Shown here in pieces: positions 2,154 through 17,729 of a DNA stretch of 43,489 nucleotides. Both the position numbers and the translations under genes were made by a program. The DNA is from Flavobacteriales bacterium (lineage in GTDB: Bacteria; Bacteroidota; Bacteroidia; Flavobacteriales_D; Crocinitomicaceae), in NCBI GenBank assembly GCA_947491305.1, contig CANLIL010000018.1, positions 1-43,489 of the forward strand, read 5' to 3'. The stretch's first letter is position 1, and every line of letters starts with the position of its first letter. Under the pieces are notes generated by a model. It did no database searches, was not told the DNA's origin, and was given only the letters and a program-made list of their open reading frames with translations.

Positions 2154-2616
2154 ATTCTCTAAGTTTTATAAATTCTTTGATTTTCTCATTTTCAATTAGA
2201 ACAGTTAAATTGTAATAGACAATTTTCCATTCATTACCATTGTATCGAAGAATTCCTGCTCCTCTGCAACCTTTCATCCAAGTAGCTAAATCTTCATCAA
2301 ACCAAGCCATTTTTTGATCTTCTGAAAAATTCCATTTACGATTTGACGCTTTAAAATCCCACGCCTTTCCTTTTTCAAAATAAGGCAATGAAAAATCCAT
2401 AAATTGTTGTTTATCCCAACGCTCGTTTGGCGCAGTTCCCAAAAAAATAAATGAATCGCCCGTTTTTTCAAAATACGCGTTGAAATCAGCTTTTGTTGCA
2501 GCTAAATGCCAAGCATCAAGTAATTGATTCAATTGTGTTTCTAGCTTATTTTGTGCAAAACTAACAAAGCTTAAAACGATGAATACTGCGCTGAAAAATA
2601 CGTTTTTGTTCAACAT
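2152..2616 (-). CDS. Secreted NTF2-like / SnoaL-like protein
   Basis: A 154-residue protein with a signal peptide ('MLNKNVFFSAVFIVLSFVSFAQ') and a small NTF2-like fold. An N-terminal helix ('LLDAWHLAATKADFNAYFE') precedes 'FIFLGTAPNERWDKQQF' and late beta strands ending 'WKIVYYNLTVLIENEK', a pattern seen in DUF4440/SnoaL-like proteins with an extracytoplasmic role. No catalytic residues can be assigned and the function is unknown. I chose the ATG at 2614-2616 over one 12 codons upstream because it starts at the signal peptide and overlaps the subtilase stop codon (TAATG). This suggests translational coupling to the protease gene. Confidence 0.75.
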   Translation of the reverse strand: MLNKNVFFSAVFIVLSFVSFAQNKLETQLNQLLDAWHLAATKADFNAYFEKTGDSFIFLGTAPNERWDKQQFMDFSLPYFEKGKAWDFKASNRKWNFSEDQKMAWFDEDLATWMKGCRGAGILRYNGNEWKIVYYNLTVLIENEKIKEFIKLRE

Positions 2617-4208
2617 TAATTCATTGATTTTGTTTTTTCCAACTCCATACACATTTTCACAGCATTTAAAACATTCACAACTCCACCTGTCACAGACAAG
2701 GTTGCGAAATCAGCTTTTTGATCTGTTCCTGGAACGATTTGTTGTGTTCCTTTGTATGATTTTGCAGACTTTAACATTACTTCTTTAATTTCAAGCATTG
2801 TTAACGAAGGAAAATAACTTTTCAGTAATGCAGCAACACCTGCAACCATAGGCGCAGCCATTGAAGTACCTTGTAATTTTGCATAACTACTTTGAGGAAC
2901 AGTGTTGTAAATTTCAAAACCAGGTGCAAAAACATCTACCTTGGTAGTGCCATAATTTGAAAACGAAGCCGCTAATTGTTCTTTTGGATTGCGAGTAGAT
3001 GCACCAATTGTGATAAAGTGTTTCAATGGTTCTTTTTGAAAACTGTATTGAGCCATTGGGAAATTAGGATCAATTTCCATATTAGCATTGTCGTTTCCAG
3101 CAGCATGCACTAATAAAACACCTTTTGCATCCGCATATGCAAAGGCATCGCTTACTTCTTTTTGGTACATTGAATAGGATTTTCCAAACGACATGTTAAT
3201 GATTTGAGCGCCATTATCAACAGCATATCGAACAGCCAATGCAACATCTTTATCATGTTCATCACCATTTGGAACAGCACGTAAGACCATTAAAGAAACA
3301 TTTTCAGCAACACCTTCTCCGCCTAATTTGTTTCCTCTAACTGCACCAATGATTCCGCCAACATGTGTTCCGTGCATTGCATCTGGACCTTCAACATCGT
3401 TATTTCCATAATTTTTATCCGAGAAATCAGCAGAATTATCACCAATAATCGCACGGTCATCAAAATCAACATTCAAGTTAAAATTGACCATTTGTTCCAA
3501 TTGCTTTTTCTGATCTGCCATATCTTTTTCATTGAACTGGTCAGTTTCAATGGCTATTGCAAATTCTTTCAACTGAATTAATTCCATTGAAGTAGGCTGC
3601 CATTTTTCTAAATCTTTTAAAGTGTATTTTTCTTTTTTCAATTCTTTCGCAACCATTGAAGGCACTTGTTTTACCATCATTTCAATCATTGGCAATTGAT
3701 TCAAATACCCTTCGTATTCTTCTTTCTCTTTGTTAACTTCTTCTTGAACTTTCAAAAACAAGTTGTATTGTTCTTTTTCTGAAGCACCTAGATTTGCAGG
3801 ATCAATTCCTTCAAACTGTTTAGATAGTTTTTTTAGAATTCTCGTTTTTTCCAAACAAGCTTCATTTAAATTTTCTCCTTTTGCATTTCCTAAAAAGCTC
3901 CATCCATTGACATCATCAACGTATCCATTTTTGTCATCGTCGATTCCATTTTTAGGAATTTCATTTTTATTCACCCATATTTTCCCTTTTAAATCCTCGT
4001 GTTCAATGTCAATTCCTGAATCGATAACTGCAACAACAACATTGTTAGATTTTTTAGATTTTAATTTTTTATAGGCTTTGTTTGTTTGCATTCCTGTTCC
4101 GTCGCCATTGTACCAATTCAATATTTCTTTCGTACTTTGAGCAGATAAAAAGTTAGAGATTCCTATTGCAAAAATCGTAAAACTTAATTTTATTATAATT
4201 TTCTTCAT
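2616..4208 (-). CDS. Secreted S8 subtilisin-like serine protease with helical insertion
   Basis: An S8 family peptidase of 530 residues, exported by an N-terminal signal peptide (residues 1-23, ending 'LSAQ'). The catalytic triad is complete: Asp63 in 'VAVIDSGIDIEHEDL', His279 in 'DAMHGTHVGGIIG' and Ser449 in 'LQGTSMAAPMVAG', with the oxyanion Asn in 'HAAGNDNA'. An unusual feature is the segment of about 140 residues between the Asp and His motifs (roughly 105-245). It is charged and helix-rich, with Lys/Glu-dense stretches, and may be an inhibitory or docking insertion. No T9SS sorting domain follows the protease domain, so it is probably periplasmic. The downstream NTF2-like gene overlaps its stop codon. 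Confidence 0.93.
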   Translation of the reverse strand: MKKIIIKLSFTIFAIGISNFLSAQSTKEILNWYNGDGTGMQTNKAYKKLKSKKSNNVVVAVIDSGIDIEHEDLKGKIWVNKNEIPKNGIDDDKNGYVDDVNGWSFLGNAKGENLNEACLEKTRILKKLSKQFEGIDPANLGASEKEQYNLFLKVQEEVNKEKEEYEGYLNQLPMIEMMVKQVPSMVAKELKKEKYTLKDLEKWQPTSMELIQLKEFAIAIETDQFNEKDMADQKKQLEQMVNFNLNVDFDDRAIIGDNSADFSDKNYGNNDVEGPDAMHGTHVGGIIGAVRGNKLGGEGVAENVSLMVLRAVPNGDEHDKDVALAVRYAVDNGAQIINMSFGKSYSMYQKEVSDAFAYADAKGVLLVHAAGNDNANMEIDPNFPMAQYSFQKEPLKHFITIGASTRNPKEQLAASFSNYGTTKVDVFAPGFEIYNTVPQSSYAKLQGTSMAAPMVAGVAALLKSYFPSLTMLEIKEVMLKSAKSYKGTQQIVPGTDQKADFATLSVTGGVVNVLNAVKMCMELEKTKSMN

Positions 4209-4227
4209 TTTTAAACTTTATTTGATT

Positions 4228-4235
4228 CAAAAATA
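4228..4235 (-). promoter_or_regulatory. Candidate -7 box for the minus-strand subtilase
   Basis: Read on the minus strand this is TATTTTTG, an exact match to TAnnTTTG, about 20 nt before the ATG at 4208. No clear -33 TTG is seen. Confidence 0.5.
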
Positions 4236-4282
4236 CAATAAAATATAATTTAATTCTTGGAATTTTATTAACGTAAAGTTGT

Positions 4283-4290
4283 TATTTTTA
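4283..4290 (+). promoter_or_regulatory. Weak candidate -7 box for the plus-strand subtilase
   Basis: TATTTTTA differs from TAnnTTTG at the last base. A TTG lies at 4257-4259, 23 nt upstream. It is divergent from the promoter of the other subtilase, so the two proteases could share control DNA. Confidence 0.35.
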
Positions 4291-4311
4291 ACCTGAAATA
4301 AAATTATCGCT

Positions 4312-6861
4312 ATGAAAAGATTACTATTTTATGTTTTTATCACCATTCTTGTTTTCAACAACACGGCCAAATCTCAAATAAACACAAAATTCGGATTTAA
4401 AACATATTTAGAAAAACAGCCTACAACGCTCACTACTTTTTGTGTTCCAAATGATATACAAACGACCGCTTTGTTACACAAACATCACATTACCATTAAA
4501 TATTCTTCTAAAAATTGGCATTTCATAACAACCACAGCTAAATGGATAGATGAATACACAAAAAATGGACAGCTTAATAATTACTATTTTGAACATGCTC
4601 CTCCAATGGCTTTATCAGATACAGCATTGGTTTTAAACAACATCAAACCTGTACATTTAGGATTAGGAGGCTTACAATCTCCTTACACTGGAAAAGGCGT
4701 TATTATAGGATATGTCGATCAAGGAATTGATTGGAATCACCCTGACTTTATTGATTCTAATGGTCACACACGCGTTCTTCGTTATTGGGATCAAAGTACA
4801 AATATAGGAGGAACTATTCCGCAACCTTATAATTATGGTATTGTTTGGGATAGTGCTCAAATAAATGCTGGTTTATGTACCAGTACAGAAGAAAGTTCCG
4901 CTCACGGTTCAACTGTTGCAGGAATGGGTTCGAGTAATGCGCGCGCCAATGGTCAAGCAATGGGTGTAGCACCTAACTCAATGATTATCATGATTGAAAC
5001 CAATTTTAATTTAAACAATTGGAGTTTAACTGTCGCCGATGCTTGCGACTATGTTTTCAAGGTTGCTGATTCTCTCGGAATGCAAGCTGTAATGAATTTA
5101 AGTGTTGGTTCATATTTGGGAAGTCACGATGGACGAGATCCAGCAGCAGAATACATGGATTCATTGGTAAGTGCAAAAAGTGGAAGAATTATTGTGTGTG
5201 CCGCCGGAAATGCAGGTGCTAAAGGAAAATACCACGTTACAGGATTCCCAACTGTGGACACTTCATTTGTTTGGATTAAAAACAATACGAGTACGAGCGC
5301 TGCTTTTGGAGCCAATAAAATCTATTTCGATCTTTGGTCAGACACTATCAATGCGAATTATGAATTTGCATACGAAGCGGATTTACCAGCACCATTTTAT
5401 ACCAAAAGAGCAACAACGACTTTCAAAAGTGCATTAGCGAATTTCCCAACTAATCCAATTTATGATACACTTTACAATCTAGCAGGACAGCGAATTGCTA
5501 CAATTGAAACGTACAAAGAATTCATGAACGGAAATGTTCACATTGAAAGTTATTTCAGCAATGTGGATTCTACCAATTACATTTTTCGATTTAAAACGAA
5601 AGGTTCTGGATCCTACGACATGTGGAGTGGCGCTTGGATCGGATTAAATGATTTTATAACAACATTACCGCCAATTTCTGTTGTCCAAGATATTAATCAA
5701 TACAACATGCCAGACACTTTACAAACGCTCGTTTCCAATTGGGCATGTTCAGAAAAAATGATTACGGTAGCTAACATGCGCAACCGCAAAACACACACTA
5801 CAAAAAACAATGTTGTTCTAACCACAGACAATACACCAGTTGGAAAATTGAGTTTGAATTCCAGTAAAGGTCCAACAAGATTAAATGCATTAAAACCTGA
5901 CATTACAGCAGCTGGAGATATTTCATTAACGGCGGCACCACTTTGGTTATTGAATAATTCTGCTTATAATAATTCCGTAGATATTGATGGTTGGCACGCT
6001 AGAAATGGCGGCACTTCAATGGCTTCACCAGTAGTTGCTGGATTTGCAGCTTTGTATTTAGAAAAATGTAGCAAAGCAAATTATGCATCTTTTAAAAATG
6101 ACATTATAGCCACTGCAAGTGGTGATAATTTCACGGGTGTTTTACCTAATTATGGATATGGAAATGGAAAGTTAAATGGTTTAAATGCACTGTTAATGAA
6201 TGAATTTACTGGTTCAATTCAAGGTCCAGATTCAATTTGCTCTGTGGCTACATTACAAGCTACAGCTTCAAATCCTATTGGTTTTGTATACTGGTCGGAC
6301 GGTTCAGGTGGTGTTAATCCGGAAATTTATTCAGGTGGTGCTTATTCCGCTACAATTTTCAATACAAAAGGATGTAGTTTTAAAACAGACACCATTCAAA
6401 TTTTGCAGTTAACAACAAATTCCATTCAACCAATTGTTCAAAATGGTCAAATTTTAAGTACAGTAGCTCCAAATTACCAATGGACCTTAAATGGTGTAGA
6501 CTTAATTGGAGAAACAAATGCTAACTTACAAATTACACCGCCTTATGGAATATATACCTGTTTCACAACAAGTATTGATGGTTGCATAACTGAAACAGTT
6601 CCTTTCGAACCATTTTTAGGTATTAATGAACTCGAAATGAATCAAATAATTCTGTATCCTAATCCAACCGAAGATAATTTTTCTTTACATTCCACAACGG
6701 ATATAAAATTAGATAAAATCACAGATGTTAACGGTAAAGAAATGGAAATAAATGAGTTAGAACAAAATTATTTTTCAGTTACTAGCTATTCTAAAGGAGT
6801 TTACACCGTATTTTTAACCTACAACAATAAAAAGATACATCTTAAATTGATAAGAATGTAA
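4312..6861 (+). CDS. Secreted S8 subtilase with T9SS C-terminal sorting domain
   Basis: An extracellular serine protease of 849 residues. A signal peptide (about 1-21) is followed by a propeptide-like region and a split S8 domain: Asp136 in 'IGYVDQGIDWNHPDF', His198 in 'SSAHGSTVAGM' and Ser569 in 'GGTSMASPVVAGF'. About 370 residues separate His and Ser, more than in simple subtilisins, which suggests an inserted domain near residues 330-480. After the protease comes a beta-rich stretch, then a type A T9SS sorting domain of about 75 residues starting at 'ILYPNPTEDNF' and ending in a basic tail 'KKIHLKLIRM'. Such domains direct export through the Por secretion system and attachment or release at the cell surface. 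It lies back to back with the other subtilase. Confidence 0.94.
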   Translation: MKRLLFYVFITILVFNNTAKSQINTKFGFKTYLEKQPTTLTTFCVPNDIQTTALLHKHHITIKYSSKNWHFITTTAKWIDEYTKNGQLNNYYFEHAPPMALSDTALVLNNIKPVHLGLGGLQSPYTGKGVIIGYVDQGIDWNHPDFIDSNGHTRVLRYWDQSTNIGGTIPQPYNYGIVWDSAQINAGLCTSTEESSAHGSTVAGMGSSNARANGQAMGVAPNSMIIMIETNFNLNNWSLTVADACDYVFKVADSLGMQAVMNLSVGSYLGSHDGRDPAAEYMDSLVSAKSGRIIVCAAGNAGAKGKYHVTGFPTVDTSFVWIKNNTSTSAAFGANKIYFDLWSDTINANYEFAYEADLPAPFYTKRATTTFKSALANFPTNPIYDTLYNLAGQRIATIETYKEFMNGNVHIESYFSNVDSTNYIFRFKTKGSGSYDMWSGAWIGLNDFITTLPPISVVQDINQYNMPDTLQTLVSNWACSEKMITVANMRNRKTHTTKNNVVLTTDNTPVGKLSLNSSKGPTRLNALKPDITAAGDISLTAAPLWLLNNSAYNNSVDIDGWHARNGGTSMASPVVAGFAALYLEKCSKANYASFKNDIIATASGDNFTGVLPNYGYGNGKLNGLNALLMNEFTGSIQGPDSICSVATLQATASNPIGFVYWSDGSGGVNPEIYSGGAYSATIFNTKGCSFKTDTIQILQLTTNSIQPIVQNGQILSTVAPNYQWTLNGVDLIGETNANLQITPPYGIYTCFTTSIDGCITETVPFEPFLGINELEMNQIILYPNPTEDNFSLHSTTDIKLDKITDVNGKEMEINELEQNYFSVTSYSKGVYTVFLTYNNKKIHLKLIRM

Positions 6862-13824: not shown

Positions 13825-15048
13825 TTATTCTTTACCTTCAACGTAAGCTTGAAGGTACGAAAAATCTGAAGTTAACGTTCCTTCGCTTGTCGTTTCTGTT
13901 GCACGCGCAATGATGCGATCTGGATCTTCACCCACTAAATATGGAAATACAAATCGAATCAATTCATTACCAAAATCTTCCGAAGCATCTAACGGTAATT
14001 CACACGGTAAATTATCGATGGCCATTACAGCAATTATACCATCCTTAGTATAATCATCTTCTGCTTTTGTAATCGGATTGTAACCATAAACAGGATCTGC
14101 AACTTTACTTGGTCGAATGGTGCAAGCAATAGGTCCAGCAATATCACATGAAATATCAGCCACCACTTTTATGCGTGAATTTTCGTTCAATAAATCATCG
14201 TTCGTTAGAATAAAAGGTGATTTATTGCTCCAAAAATGACATGGAATGTACATATCTGTCAAGCCAACAAAACGATTAAATGTTGATTGATACTCCGATG
14301 GATTCGCATAAAAATCTCCTTTATCAAACTGTTTTCCATCGATACGACCATAATAATCTTCTGCATCTAAATGCGTAAAAACAGGTTCGTCAAACGATTC
14401 ATTTAAAAACTCAGATGGCGTAACTTCCTTAATTGGTAATAAATTCACAATCTCACGCGCTCCTTGACCTACTCGACCAAAACCAGTTAAAACAACCTTG
14501 TAATTCTTTGGTAAAACAACCGTTTCCACCATTGCTTGTTCCATTGATTTACGATCTTTACATTGATGAGCAGCCACTAAATTGTAAAGACCAGATTTTA
14601 TCCCAAATGTCCGAAACGCATTGTATGCACCAACAATTCCAGCATAACGTCCAAAACCGATAATGCGTTTATTTTGTTTGTTACGAATTGCTTCATAATC
14701 AATTAACGCAATGTTTTTTTCTAAAATTGCGTTAAGCAACCCACGATTATAAGGCTGTTTTTTCAAGGTGTGAGAAAAGAACATAAACTTTTTGTTCGGA
14801 ATTAAATCTGAAACATTCACTTCCTTCACACCGATAATCAAATCACAAGCGCTTAAATCTTCATTCAATTCGAATCCTTTATCAAGGTATTCTTGATCTT
14901 TATAAGCTCTTATTGGACTTGGCTGAACAATAATCTTAAGATTTGGATATTCATTTGTCAGTTGAACACAATGAGTTGGAGTTAATGCCACGCGATGATC
15001 TGGTGGAACTTTTCCTTCTCTTATTATTCCTATTGTGAAATTTTTCAT
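13825..15048 (-). CDS. Lys1/alanine dehydrogenase-like NAD(P)-dependent oxidoreductase
   Basis: A 407-residue enzyme of the AlaDH/PNT-saccharopine dehydrogenase superfamily. The N-terminal half has the substrate-domain signature 'IGIIREGKVPPDHRVALTP' and 'ACDLIIGVKEV'. 'RIIGFGRYAGIVGAYNAFR' resembles yeast Lys1. The Rossmann motif 'VVLTGFGRVGQGAREIV' gives a GxGxxG dinucleotide site, followed by 'VVADISCDIAGPIACTIR'. The likely chemistry is reversible oxidation of an amino or imino acid (saccharopine, alanine or a similar opine-type substrate), but the exact substrate cannot be read. It sits 2 nt downstream of the kdsC-like gene and 17 nt upstream of the MFS transporter. Confidence 0.82.
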   Translation of the reverse strand: MKNFTIGIIREGKVPPDHRVALTPTHCVQLTNEYPNLKIIVQPSPIRAYKDQEYLDKGFELNEDLSACDLIIGVKEVNVSDLIPNKKFMFFSHTLKKQPYNRGLLNAILEKNIALIDYEAIRNKQNKRIIGFGRYAGIVGAYNAFRTFGIKSGLYNLVAAHQCKDRKSMEQAMVETVVLPKNYKVVLTGFGRVGQGAREIVNLLPIKEVTPSEFLNESFDEPVFTHLDAEDYYGRIDGKQFDKGDFYANPSEYQSTFNRFVGLTDMYIPCHFWSNKSPFILTNDDLLNENSRIKVVADISCDIAGPIACTIRPSKVADPVYGYNPITKAEDDYTKDGIIAVMAIDNLPCELPLDASEDFGNELIRFVFPYLVGEDPDRIIARATETTSEGTLTSDFSYLQAYVEGKE

Positions 15049-15050
15049 AG

Positions 15051-15728
15051 TTAATTTAAGGGTTGTGCTAAAATGTAAGCATCAATAAATTCACGAACAC
15101 AACCATCTCCGCCTTTTTTAGTTAAAATTACATCAACGTTGCTTTTCACAACATTCATTGCATCAGAAGGAGCTGCAGAAAAACCTACTTTTTTGATAAC
15201 AGGTAGATCGTTTACATCGTCACCAATAATCGCTACTTGATTTAATTCAATGCCTAGTTCTTCACAAAATTGATTTAATACGGTCAATTTTGGATCTCGA
15301 CCAACGTAAACTCTCTGAACGCCTAATAATTCTGCTCTTTTTTGAATCATTTCAGTTGTATAACCTGATGAAATGATTGCTACTTGATAGCCATTTTTTG
15401 TCAAATGTTGAATCGCCATGCCATCTTTGGTATTGAATTTCTTGATTTGATCGCCTTTTTCGGAATAATACATTCCACCATCCGTCATTACACCATCAAC
15501 ATCCAATACCAACAATTTAATTTTATCCAATTTTTGTTTCCAAACATCCGGTTTAAACATTGGTTTGAACAACAAAGACATTAAATCAATATCATATTCC
15601 TCACAGATTGCTTCCAAATCATAGATAGTCAATTCACTCACATTTTCAACGTCTAAATCGTCTAAAAATTCAGCGTATTTTAATCCAAATTTTGAGCAAA
15701 GACCTTTAATATTTATTTCTAAATTCAT
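15051..15728 (-). CDS. KdsC-like HAD phosphatase with N-terminal extension
   Basis: A HAD-IIIA phosphatase of 225 residues. The C-terminal part (about 68-225) is a KdsC-type enzyme: motif I 'LLVLDVDGVMTDGGMYY' (DxD nucleophile pair), motif II 'VAIISSGYTTEMIQKRAELL', and motif IV 'VAIIGDDVNDLPVIKKVGF'. KdsC releases phosphate from Kdo-8-phosphate. Ahead of it is an extra segment of about 65 residues ('LTIYDLEAICEEYDIDLMSL') that looks like the end of a small helix-turn-helix domain and is absent from ordinary KdsC (about 165-185 residues). It follows the DAHP synthase gene by 1 nt and precedes the dehydrogenase by 2 nt. The substrate may be a 3-deoxy-sugar phosphate, given the neighbours. Confidence 0.85.
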   Translation of the reverse strand: MNLEINIKGLCSKFGLKYAEFLDDLDVENVSELTIYDLEAICEEYDIDLMSLLFKPMFKPDVWKQKLDKIKLLVLDVDGVMTDGGMYYSEKGDQIKKFNTKDGMAIQHLTKNGYQVAIISSGYTTEMIQKRAELLGVQRVYVGRDPKLTVLNQFCEELGIELNQVAIIGDDVNDLPVIKKVGFSAAPSDAMNVVKSNVDVILTKKGGDGCVREFIDAYILAQPLN

Positions 15729-15729
15729 T

Positions 15730-16728
15730 TTAAATCATCTTGTATCCAACACTTTGAGCAACTGGACGAAGTGCGTTTAATAATTCTGTAAATTCTTGGT
15801 GTGTCAATTGTTGAGAAGCATCAGATTTTGCAACTTTAGGATTTCTGTGTGTTTCAATTAATAATCCGTCAATTCCCATTGCAACACAAGCTTTTGCTAA
15901 AACAGGAACTCCGTAAGCATATCCCATAGCGTGAGAAGGATCTAAGATAATTGGCAAATTTGTATATTCTTGCAACCAAGCAACGCCACATAAATCTAAG
16001 GTAAAACGCGTACCTGTTTCAAAAGTACGAATTCCGCGTTCACACAAAATAACATTTTCATTGCCGCCAGCCAAAACAAATTCTGCTGCTTGAACAAATT
16101 CTTGAAGAGTTGAACCAAAACCTCGTTTAATTAAAACTGGTTTATTTGTTTTCGCGCAGGCTCTCAAAATCCCTTGATCATACATCGCTTTTGCTCCAAC
16201 TTGAATGACATCCGAATATTCAATAATTTCATCAATGTGTGTTGCATCTCTCGCTTCAGTGATAACAGACAAACCAAATTCTTCACGCATTTTTGCTAAC
16301 AATTTCAATCCATCCAATCCCATTCCTTGAAATGAATACGGACTTGTTCTTGGTTTATAACAACCACCTCTCAAGGTTGACAAACCTAAATCAACCAATA
16401 ATTTAGCTGATTCACGAATTTGTTCTTCTGATTCCACCGAACAAGGTCCGCCAATCAAAACAGTATTTTGTGTCGCACCACCAATGGTTACATTACCAAT
16501 TTTAACTTCTCTTTTATTAGGCAAGTATGATTTTGCAGCCAATTGCATGTCGTTTGGAAATACCCAAAATTGATCTACTTTATCAGAAATTTGAACTGGA
16601 ACTTCTTTAACGCCAGAACTTGTGATTAAGACATTTGTTCCGTTTGAAGTAATGTGAAACGCTTTTATTTCTGCTGCGATTTTATCCGCCTCTTGGTTTG
16701 AGATTGTATTTTTTAAATGTAGTATCAT
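15730..16728 (-). CDS. aroF: 3-deoxy-7-phosphoheptulonate (DAHP) synthase, type I-beta
   Basis: Condenses phosphoenolpyruvate with erythrose-4-phosphate, the first step of the shikimate pathway. It has 332 residues: a ferredoxin-like N-terminal domain (about 1-75) and a TIM barrel. 'VLIGGPCSVESEEQI' and 'RGGCYKPRTSPYSFQG' are diagnostic. The KPRTS loop is the form found in DAHP synthases, while KDO-8-P synthases have KANRS. Further blocks are 'NVILCERGIRTFETGTRF' and 'ILDPSHAMGYAYGVP'. There is no fused chorismate mutase. The start overlaps the stop of the epimerase-CBS gene by 4 nt, so the two are translationally coupled. A different aldose-phosphate acceptor cannot be excluded from sequence alone. 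Confidence 0.88.
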   Translation of the reverse strand: MILHLKNTISNQEADKIAAEIKAFHITSNGTNVLITSSGVKEVPVQISDKVDQFWVFPNDMQLAAKSYLPNKREVKIGNVTIGGATQNTVLIGGPCSVESEEQIRESAKLLVDLGLSTLRGGCYKPRTSPYSFQGMGLDGLKLLAKMREEFGLSVITEARDATHIDEIIEYSDVIQVGAKAMYDQGILRACAKTNKPVLIKRGFGSTLQEFVQAAEFVLAGGNENVILCERGIRTFETGTRFTLDLCGVAWLQEYTNLPIILDPSHAMGYAYGVPVLAKACVAMGIDGLLIETHRNPKVAKSDASQQLTHQEFTELLNALRPVAQSVGYKMI

Positions 16729-17729
16729 AATTCGCCTTTAATAAGATATGCAAAGTTAACAATTCCTGCCGCTTTTCCATCATTTTTTAACACTGGAAGG
16801 TACATAATTGGGAACATGCATTTTTTAATTTTTTGTAATAATTCTACAACTGTCGCTGTATCTTGAATGGAAATTGGTTGTTCATTCATCAAATCCCTTG
16901 CTTCAATTTTGGTTAAATCTGCTAAATTTCTCAACATTGCTTTTCGAATGTCAGCAGAAGAAACAATACCTTTCAAATCGTTTTCCTGGTTCGTCACTAA
17001 ACAAAATCCTAAATTCCCTTTTTCAATGGTTTCTAAAACTGTTTGGAGCGAAATTGTTTCTAGCTGGACCACAGGACATTCATCCAACGGCATCATAAAA
17101 TCTGCTACTTTAAATTGAGATTCGATTTCACGTTTGGTTAAATTCATCAACGCATGCCCAATACTTGGCGCATTGAATAAATACGAGCCAGAGACAGAAG
17201 AACTTACACCCATATTTCTGAGAATAAAAGAAACTTCACCGTTTACACCGCCATCTACATGAATTGATTTATTCGGGTATTTTTTTCTAAACTGACGAAT
17301 CTTTGAGAAATTAATGGCATCAAATACACCCCCACTTTGACCTGGAATTGTAGCCATAATTAATATAAAATCAAAATCGGCATAAGCATCAAAAACATCA
17401 ACCGAAGTTGGAGTAATAACTGCTAAACCTTTTTTTCCAGTGATATCTGTTGGAATTTCTAACTTTTTTGACAATTGTTCAAACTGAAAAGTAATGTACT
17501 CTACAGGATTTGATTTTAATAAATCGAAGTATTTTTCAGGTTCCTCTGTAATAATATGCAAATCAATTGGTAAATTACACCATTGTCGAATTTGTTGAAT
17601 GTCATCAAAAACAGTTAAATCATCGTTGCAATCAACGTGTAACAAATCAACTTGATGTTGCACTAAATCCTCAATCACCTCTTTTAAAGGACGTTTTTTA
17701 TCACTGTATATGGAAGCTGAAATTTTCAT
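16725..17729 (-). CDS. Ribulose-phosphate 3-epimerase-like barrel fused to a CBS pair
   Basis: A 334-residue two-part protein. Residues 1-200 look like a divergent ribulose-5-phosphate 3-epimerase TIM barrel. The four metal-ligand positions of that family appear kept: His and Asp in 'DLLHVDCNDD', His in 'NLPIDLHIIT' and Asp in 'SIHVDGGVNGE'. The phosphate-binding glycines are seen around 'IMATIPGQSGGVF'. Residues 205-334 form two CBS domains ('GIVSSADIRKAMLRNL', 'MNEQPISIQDTATVVELL') with the spacing found at the C-terminus of KpsF/KdsD arabinose-5-phosphate isomerases. I know no standard enzyme with this combination. It is the first gene of the nine-gene operon and is coupled to aroF. Confidence 0.78.
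   Translation of the reverse strand: MKISASIYSDKKRPLKEVIEDLVQHQVDLLHVDCNDDLTVFDDIQQIRQWCNLPIDLHIITEEPEKYFDLLKSNPVEYITFQFEQLSKKLEIPTDITGKKGLAVITPTSVDVFDAYADFDFILIMATIPGQSGGVFDAINFSKIRQFRKKYPNKSIHVDGGVNGEVSFILRNMGVSSSVSGSYLFNAPSIGHALMNLTKREIESQFKVADFMMPLDECPVVQLETISLQTVLETIEKGNLGFCLVTNQENDLKGIVSSADIRKAMLRNLADLTKIEARDLMNEQPISIQDTATVVELLQKIKKCMFPIMYLPVLKNDGKAAGIVNFAYLIKGEL

Follow-up and report, generated by a model that had tools for sequence, protein, structure and literature searches.

A Conserved Epimerase-CBS, Synthase, and Phosphatase Triad as a Probable Replacement for KdsD, KdsA, and KdsC in the Kdo Pathway of Crocinitomicaceae

3-Deoxy-D-manno-octulosonate (Kdo) is the sugar that anchors the lipopolysaccharide of the outer membrane, and making it is a widespread, conserved trait of Gram-negative bacteria. 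We have analyzed a stretch of 43,489 nucleotides, called the window below, from a Flavobacteriales bacterium of the aquatic family Crocinitomicaceae (assembly GCA_947491305.1, contig CANLIL010000018.1). Three coupled genes on its minus strand encode a ribulose-phosphate-3-epimerase (Rpe)-like barrel joined to a CBS pair (EPI), a synthase resembling 3-deoxy-D-arabino-heptulosonate 7-phosphate (DAHP) synthase, or DAHPS, of aromatic amino-acid synthesis (SYN), and a KdsC-like phosphatase. This triad probably stands in, with non-orthologous enzymes, for the three opening steps on the way to Kdo, the Kdo then being used by KdsB and WaaA, two enzymes for which we know of no use without a Kdo-like sugar. 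The sampled Crocinitomicaceae keep both of these enzymes while departing from conserved Kdo synthesis, and it is the triad that fills the gap. As a replacement for KdsD and KdsA the arrangement is conserved and coherent; for KdsC it is probably so.

EPI (16725–17729, minus strand, as are all triad coordinates given here; 334 amino acids) and SYN (15730–16728; 332 amino acids) overlap by 4 nucleotides (ATGA), and the gene for the phosphatase, of the HAD type (15051–15728; 225 amino acids), begins 1 nucleotide after SYN. Coordinates and Pfam and NCBIfam domains thus confirm the coupled genes for an epimerase-CBS protein, a DAHPS-like synthase, and a KdsC-like phosphatase described in the first-pass annotation of this DNA, which had also proposed checking whether the three co-occur. 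They do. In a collection of named genomes, 297 stretches contain an EPI relative at E ≤ 1e-3, a threshold that may also admit ordinary Rpe; among the best 80 of these, which were kept, 72 have EPI, SYN, and KdsC together, and the remaining eight are cut by contig ends (five with EPI and SYN, three with EPI only). The 80 loci come mostly from metagenome-assembled genomes labeled Crocinitomicaceae, Flavobacteriales, or Flavobacteriia, and include Fluviicola, Brumimicrobium, and Lishizhenia along with some other genus names. Given this conservation across the kept loci, the arrangement is not due to chance. The 4-nucleotide overlap recurs in 18 of 19 adjacent EPI/SYN pairs compared, and the order EPI-SYN-KdsC is constant in four families despite differing flanks, the exception being one genome (G159) in which EPI lies 11 kb away from SYN-KdsC.

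We surveyed 150 genomes of the order, requiring E ≤ 1e-30 for EPI, E ≤ 1e-45 for KdsA (TIGR01362), and E ≤ 1e-25 for KdsD (TIGR00393) and KdsB (TIGR00466), and taking family f1 as Crocinitomicaceae (genomes, loci, contigs, families, and genera are designated G, L, C, f, and g). EPI was found in 47 genomes, KdsA in 95, KdsD-type proteins in 88, and KdsB in 142. EPI and KdsA are mutually exclusive: they share no genome, as against 29.8 expected (Fisher p = 5e-31, a value that ignores kinship). Within f1, most of whose genomes are at least 99% complete, EPI is present in 41 of 42 genomes, KdsB in 41 of 42, and KdsA in none. EPI without KdsA is also found outside f1, in f3/g13 (four genomes), f10/g29 (one), and f8/g36 (one), whose sister genera have KdsA, and this switch in four families is more telling than the p-value. 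KdsB was detected in 45 of the 47 EPI genomes and 92 of the 95 KdsA genomes, and WaaA in 38 of 40 genomes searched, that of the window (G000) included. A KdsD-type match was obtained in a single EPI genome, the window's own, where it is a weak protein with a SIS domain only. In a sample of 395 genomes from the phylum, EPI (E ≤ 1e-50) occurs in two, both f1.

Because the 42 f1 genomes gave no KdsA and, bar this one weak exception, no KdsD, and KdsB is kept, we regard the triad as the Kdo pathway itself and not as an additional "shadow" of it. The first-pass annotation had suggested an undescribed 3-deoxy-aldulosonate pathway; it saw the parallel to KdsD, KdsA, and KdsC well and was on the right branch, but the placement of such a pathway beside canonical Kdo genes must be rejected, since KdsA is found in 0 of the 42 sampled genomes of the family.

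The assembly from which the window derives (2.53 Mb, 99.99% complete) agrees with this distribution. KdsA was not found in it at the threshold above. It contains a KdsB (G000:C25) scoring above the family cut-off (226 versus 155 bits), a WaaA Kdo transferase (G000:C13), a second, ordinary-looking Rpe, a separate protein that joins a DAHP_synth_1 domain to a chorismate mutase domain, and a second KdsC adjoining a DUF2520 gene. The SIS-only, KpsF-like protein (G000:C1, L155:3557-4174; 205 amino acids) was considered as a true KdsD and is not favored: its score of 93 bits is well short of the cut-off (204), its neighbors include nucleotidyl- and glycosyltransferase-like genes, and it has no counterpart in the other 41 sampled f1 genomes at E ≤ 1e-25.

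In the EPI tree f3/g13 groups with the f1 genera g18, g23, and g24 (support 96/99), which suggests transfer. In the SYN tree, whose bootstrap had not settled, f3/g13 groups with f10/g29 and f8/g36 instead (88/90), so we claim no direction of transfer.

EPI has the Pfam domains Ribul_P_3_epim (4.5e-23) and CBS (9.7e-13), and the SIS sugar-isomerase domain characteristic of KdsD was not found in it by Pfam. Its AlphaFold model (mean predicted local distance difference test score, 90) consists of an Rpe barrel and a CBS pair, and the best Foldseek match is human Rpe (2.3e-13; TM-score 0.76 by target); the earlier reading, that an Rpe-like barrel takes the place of the SIS domain beside the CBS pair, is thus borne out. 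The (beta/alpha)8 barrel occupies residues 1–198 (17136–17729). Its H31, D33, H58, and D159 are invariant in 20 sequences, as are the VDGG and GS motifs, and these four residues align with the same residues of six Rpe, in which we take them to be the metal and acid-base residues. EPI does not reach the cut-off of the Rpe equivalog model TIGR01163 (75.8 versus 212.6 bits). When seven EPI were aligned with six Rpe of the same order, all seven showed a 6-residue deletion in the VPN loop, presumably the lid of the active site, together with the replacements M to N (K in L157), H(L/I)M to HII, and VNPGFGG to (I/T/V)PG(Q/E)SGG. On these alignments EPI looks like a working epimerase center with a new substrate pocket.

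The CBS pair (residues 206–331; 16737–17114) is, by sequence comparison, nearest to that of KdsD. Taken alone, it matches the KpsF/GutQ and KdsD NCBIfam models in each of 13 members, and for the window copy KpsF is the best of them. With whole EPI as the query, the clearly top CBS chain in the PDB is that of 4o9k, which comes from a putative arabinose-5-phosphate isomerase. The same structure leads the CBS matches when the EPI model is compared by fold, and it was reportedly solved with cytidine monophosphate-Kdo (CMP-Kdo).

SYN matches DAHP_synth_1 in Pfam (3e-66) and is a 3-deoxy-aldulosonate-phosphate synthase of a type I-beta DAHPS-like kind. Its closest relatives by fold are the type I-beta DAHPS, with a barrel identity of 52% to the Aeropyrum enzyme and about 46% to that of Pyrococcus furiosus, and its short N-terminal domain (residues 1–58; 16555–16728) aligns with the ferredoxin-like domain of the Thermotoga DAHPS. 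The metal, phosphoenolpyruvate, and erythrose 4-phosphate residues listed for the type I-beta DAHPS Aro1A (PMC6362186) map onto SYN when its numbering is shifted uniformly by 60: C96, H266, E292, and D303; R120, K125, K201, and R231; and R127 and T128 are invariant in 18 sequences. Departures from that list are R to K at position 180 and A179 where S119 is given.

Against this DAHPS background, two motifs set SYN apart. The beta-5 motif, GAKAMYD in the window copy (residues 178–184; 16177–16197), reads GAK(A/S)MYD in 23 of 23 SYN, as against GARN(S/T)QN in four ferredoxin-type DAHPS of the same order and PAFLCRQ in most KdsA compared. The beta7-alpha7 loop (residues 263–273; 15910–15942), DPSHAMGYAYG, is short like that of DAHPS, and in 23 of 23 SYN G(Y/H/F)(A/R)(Y/F)G replaces the GRR or GIR that follows DPSH in the compared DAHPS, which we take by eye to stand in a trp-gene setting. 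The loop at residues 125–130 (16339–16356), KPRTSP, is of the DAHPS type and not the KANRS of KdsA, as had been noticed at the outset. The P. furiosus DAHPS is the subject of a paper whose title begins "Substrate ambiguity." This enzyme reportedly accepts arabinose 5-phosphate, and KdsA variants with a DAHPS-like loop (structures 3stg and 3stc) reportedly remain active.

The phosphatase belongs to the KdsC family by TIGR01670 (156 bits, cut-off 106.95); its best equivalog model is KDN-9-phosphate phosphatase, below that model's cut-off (159 versus 180). Its HAD domain (residues 67–222; 15063–15530) contains DVDGVMTDG, GDDVND, and KGGDGCVRE. The extra N-terminal segment remarked on earlier is real (residues 1–60; 15549–15728) and absent from the f3/g13 copies. 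HTH_3 was matched there in four of 14 members at E ≤ 0.1 (best 2e-5), so the segment resembles a Cro/CI-type helix-turn-helix in certain distant members. The window copy gave no HTH_3 match, the extension being degenerate or different there, and no match to solved structures was obtained at E ≤ 0.1; from its relatives we read it as a degenerate helix-turn-helix. Stand-alone KdsC-like phosphatases of 215–216 amino acids, 50–52% identical to that of the window, occur in two f4 genomes with KdsA (L208:5537-6187 and L209:4812-5459).

We infer arabinose 5-phosphate as the product of EPI, and likewise the substrates of SYN and the phosphatase. EPI would convert a pentose 5-phosphate to D-arabinose 5-phosphate, and the chemistry we prefer is C2 epimerization of ribose 5-phosphate, in which the two-aspartate, metal-bound enediolate proton exchange of Rpe would be moved by one carbon: the C2 proton of ribose 5-phosphate would be removed and returned to give arabinose 5-phosphate, as Rpe does at C3 of ribulose 5-phosphate. 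Alternatively, EPI may isomerize ribulose 5-phosphate by moving a proton between C1 and C2. SYN, whose DAHPS-type site carries changes in both the beta-5 motif and the beta-7 loop, would then condense arabinose 5-phosphate with phosphoenolpyruvate to Kdo-8-phosphate, and the KdsC-like phosphatase would free Kdo for ordinary KdsB and WaaA. The KdsD-like CBS pair may bring along feedback control, perhaps by CMP-Kdo.

A number of observations weigh against replacement of the Kdo pathway, and we set them out here with the rival explanations that they favor. The main counter-evidence comes from G033 and G052 (f10/g10), which carry KdsD and KdsA together with a SYN-KdsC pair without EPI (L206:5079-6747 and L207:5345-7011) that has the same SYN motifs; in G033 the pair adjoins a gene for a methyltransferase-domain protein. 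SYN, unlike EPI, is therefore not strictly exclusive with KdsA, and the proposition that the two never coexist is wrong. This pair, which the SYN tree leaves unplaced, is possibly a half-way stage, or SYN there may make another sugar. In addition, a second KdsC (E ≤ 1e-15) is present in 14 of 16 triad genomes chosen for testing, where another phosphatase for Kdo-8-phosphate looks redundant; the 16 KdsA genomes tested have one KdsC in 11 cases, two in four, and three in one.

Such findings would fit a triad that made a different 3-deoxy-ulosonic acid, unlike Kdo in chain length or stereochemistry, that KdsB and WaaA accept, giving a changed inner core, and the DAHPS-type loops and private motif set of SYN fit this as well. 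We nevertheless hold it improbable. In an alignment of KdsB from 11 EPI and 10 KdsA genomes of our choosing, with 45 invariant columns and the active site not mapped, only two columns separate the groups, one of them variable and one an I/V exchange; no consistent change was found at conserved positions, and the window's own KdsB passes its family cut-off, as given above. The CBS pair of EPI is nearest that of KdsD. Finally, in G121, a single-contig genome, and in G139, the triad KdsC is the only one found. The first-pass annotation had counted a sole KdsC of ordinary activity among the outcomes that would tell against its proposal; these two genomes fit that description in being without another KdsC, which cuts the other way and supports a role in Kdo synthesis. 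Its suggestion to look for canonical genes and other DAHPS in the same genomes is answered by KdsA in 0 of 47 EPI genomes, the separate DAHPS-chorismate mutase of the window's genome, and the second KdsC in 14 of 16.

A further set of objections concerns the source of arabinose 5-phosphate. To our knowledge, no Rpe-fold enzyme acts on an aldose phosphate. KdsD is unmatched in 11 of the 95 KdsA genomes, nine of them g3/g43 of f3; arabinose 5-phosphate can therefore have undetected sources, and a missing KdsD alone is weak evidence. For the CBS pair queried alone, the best solved match, 4o9k, leads MJ0922 by a thin margin (46.6 versus 46.1 bits). Eukaryotic GFAT isomerizes ribulose 5-phosphate to arabinose 5-phosphate and rescues an E. 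coli mutant (PMC11301363), and by likeness to it GlmS, for example, might be the source here. SYN would then replace KdsA while EPI, whose gene in G159 is remote from SYN, balanced or sensed pentose phosphates through its CBS pair. This explanation we also think unlikely: EPI accompanies the absence of KdsA in four families and overlaps SYN in nearly all adjacent pairs, it bears a CBS pair like that of KdsD, and the genome already has its ordinary-looking Rpe.

The survey itself leaves some irregularities. Neither EPI nor KdsA was found in eight of the 150 genomes, three of which have a KdsD match, so assembly gaps do occur; G045 and G079 have EPI and no KdsB match at the threshold used; and the f10/g29 and f8/g36 cases are weaker than the others, each being a single draft genome (G045, and G056, which is 71% complete). 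If Kdo were made by enzymes too divergent for our searches, as KdsD evidently can be, the triad would be an accessory pathway. We give this little credence, since the same search recovered KdsA in 95 of 150 genomes but in none of the 42 f1 genomes. A broader search with PF00793, which covers the DAHPS and KdsA superfamily, was made in 40 genomes, the window's own included, 25 of them of genus g1. It gave no KdsA-like match in those 25. SYN was recovered in 21 of them (221–233 bits, frames of 333–364 amino acids), each time on the contig of EPI, and the DAHPS-chorismate mutase class scored 109–139 bits (frames of 355–411 amino acids); G020 had one truncated and one weak copy and G001 (64% complete) none. 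KdsA of other families scored 178–225 bits (frames of 236–331 amino acids), so the separation of SYN from KdsA rests on place, frame length, and the TIGR01362 model and not on PF00793 bits alone.

The DAHPS character of SYN is the last objection: SYN exceeds two NCBIfam DAHPS cut-offs (PRK08673, 363 versus 335 bits; TIGR01361, 314 versus 267.75), keeps KPRTS, has neither KANRS nor the long beta-7 loop of KdsA, and with the KdsA model TIGR01362 scores 129 bits, only slightly above the 112 and 118 of two ordinary DAHPS. CBS-based control of shikimate entry, the other branch offered by the first-pass annotation, in which SYN would be an ordinary DAHP synthase, EPI would tune erythrose 4-phosphate, and the phosphatase would be incidental, draws on these scores and on the retained erythrose 4-phosphate residues, but we reject it as the least credible explanation of all, because the genome has a separate DAHPS-chorismate mutase, coupling to a phosphatase would squander DAHP, the closest relative of the CBS pair is that of KdsD, SYN differs from the four ferredoxin-type DAHPS of the order at motifs those keep, and Kdo would be left without a synthase although KdsB and WaaA are kept.

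Replacement of the Kdo pathway by the triad thus remains our preferred interpretation, and within it the activity of EPI is likely to be new for its fold. We put forward more tentatively, as something that may well prove otherwise, a specific version in which EPI is a ribose-5-phosphate 2-epimerase. No Rpe-fold enzyme before it would have used an aldose phosphate, and arabinose 5-phosphate would have a second, unrelated source, carrying the CBS sensor of KdsD as a graft. Together with SYN, which would be a DAHP synthase converted to Kdo-8-phosphate synthesis, it would amount to a full reinvention of the Kdo pathway that is fixed throughout one family and present in at least three others. In the open-licence literature we found neither an Rpe-CBS fusion nor a replacement of the Kdo pathway of this kind described before, and no paper on lipopolysaccharide Kdo in Crocinitomicaceae or Fluviicola taffensis. 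If the replacement is true, it provides a new enzyme family for arabinose 5-phosphate and a natural experiment in how a DAHP synthase becomes a Kdo-8-phosphate synthase, and it corrects the annotation of a family whose genes now score as pentose and aromatic metabolism.

Two nucleotides after KdsC lies a gene (13825–15048, minus strand) for a protein with an AlaDh/PNT N-terminal domain (AlaDh_PNT_N), a dehydrogenase for which no NCBIfam model scored above its cut-off. Most of the 80 loci have it behind the triad, but it does not follow in f3/g13, f10/g29, f8/g36, or the f1 genera g18, g23, and g24; because several triad-bearing genera are without it there, we do not count it as part of the core. 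Elsewhere in the window (2616–6861), two divergently oriented genes encode subtilase-family peptidases, one with a Por-secretion tail. Among canonical genes of the order, the KdsA of G026 (genus g3; L163:4612-5442) has KDNRS in place of KANRS, and g3/g43 are also the genera whose nine sampled KdsA genomes gave no KdsD match.

Each protein of the triad can be set beside a known counterpart. With KdsD, KpsF, and GutQ, EPI shares the C-terminal CBS pair, the proposed product, and a gene position ahead of the synthase (in G052, among others), but it has no SIS domain, its catalytic part being the Rpe-like barrel. With Rpe and D-allulose-6-phosphate 3-epimerase it shares the barrel fold, the metal and acid-base residues, VDGG, and GS; it differs from Rpe in the shortened VPN loop, the altered motifs, the CBS tail, and a TIGR01163 score of 76 against 213 bits. 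SYN resembles the type I-beta DAHPS with a ferredoxin-like domain (Thermotoga maritima, 1rzm; P. furiosus, 1zco) in fold, metal ligands, all but one of the phosphoenolpyruvate residues, and KPRTS, whereas GAR has become GAK, the NMQN-type motif (A/S)MYD, and the GRR or GIR after DPSH a GYAYG-type sequence. KdsA is of the same superfamily and shares the reaction proposed for SYN, which, in contrast, falls far below the KdsA cut-off (129 versus 314 bits) and lacks its two loop features. The triad phosphatase is of the same family as the KdsC Kdo-8-phosphate phosphatase and passes its TIGR01670 cut-off, differing in the N-terminal extension that in some members resembles a helix-turn-helix.

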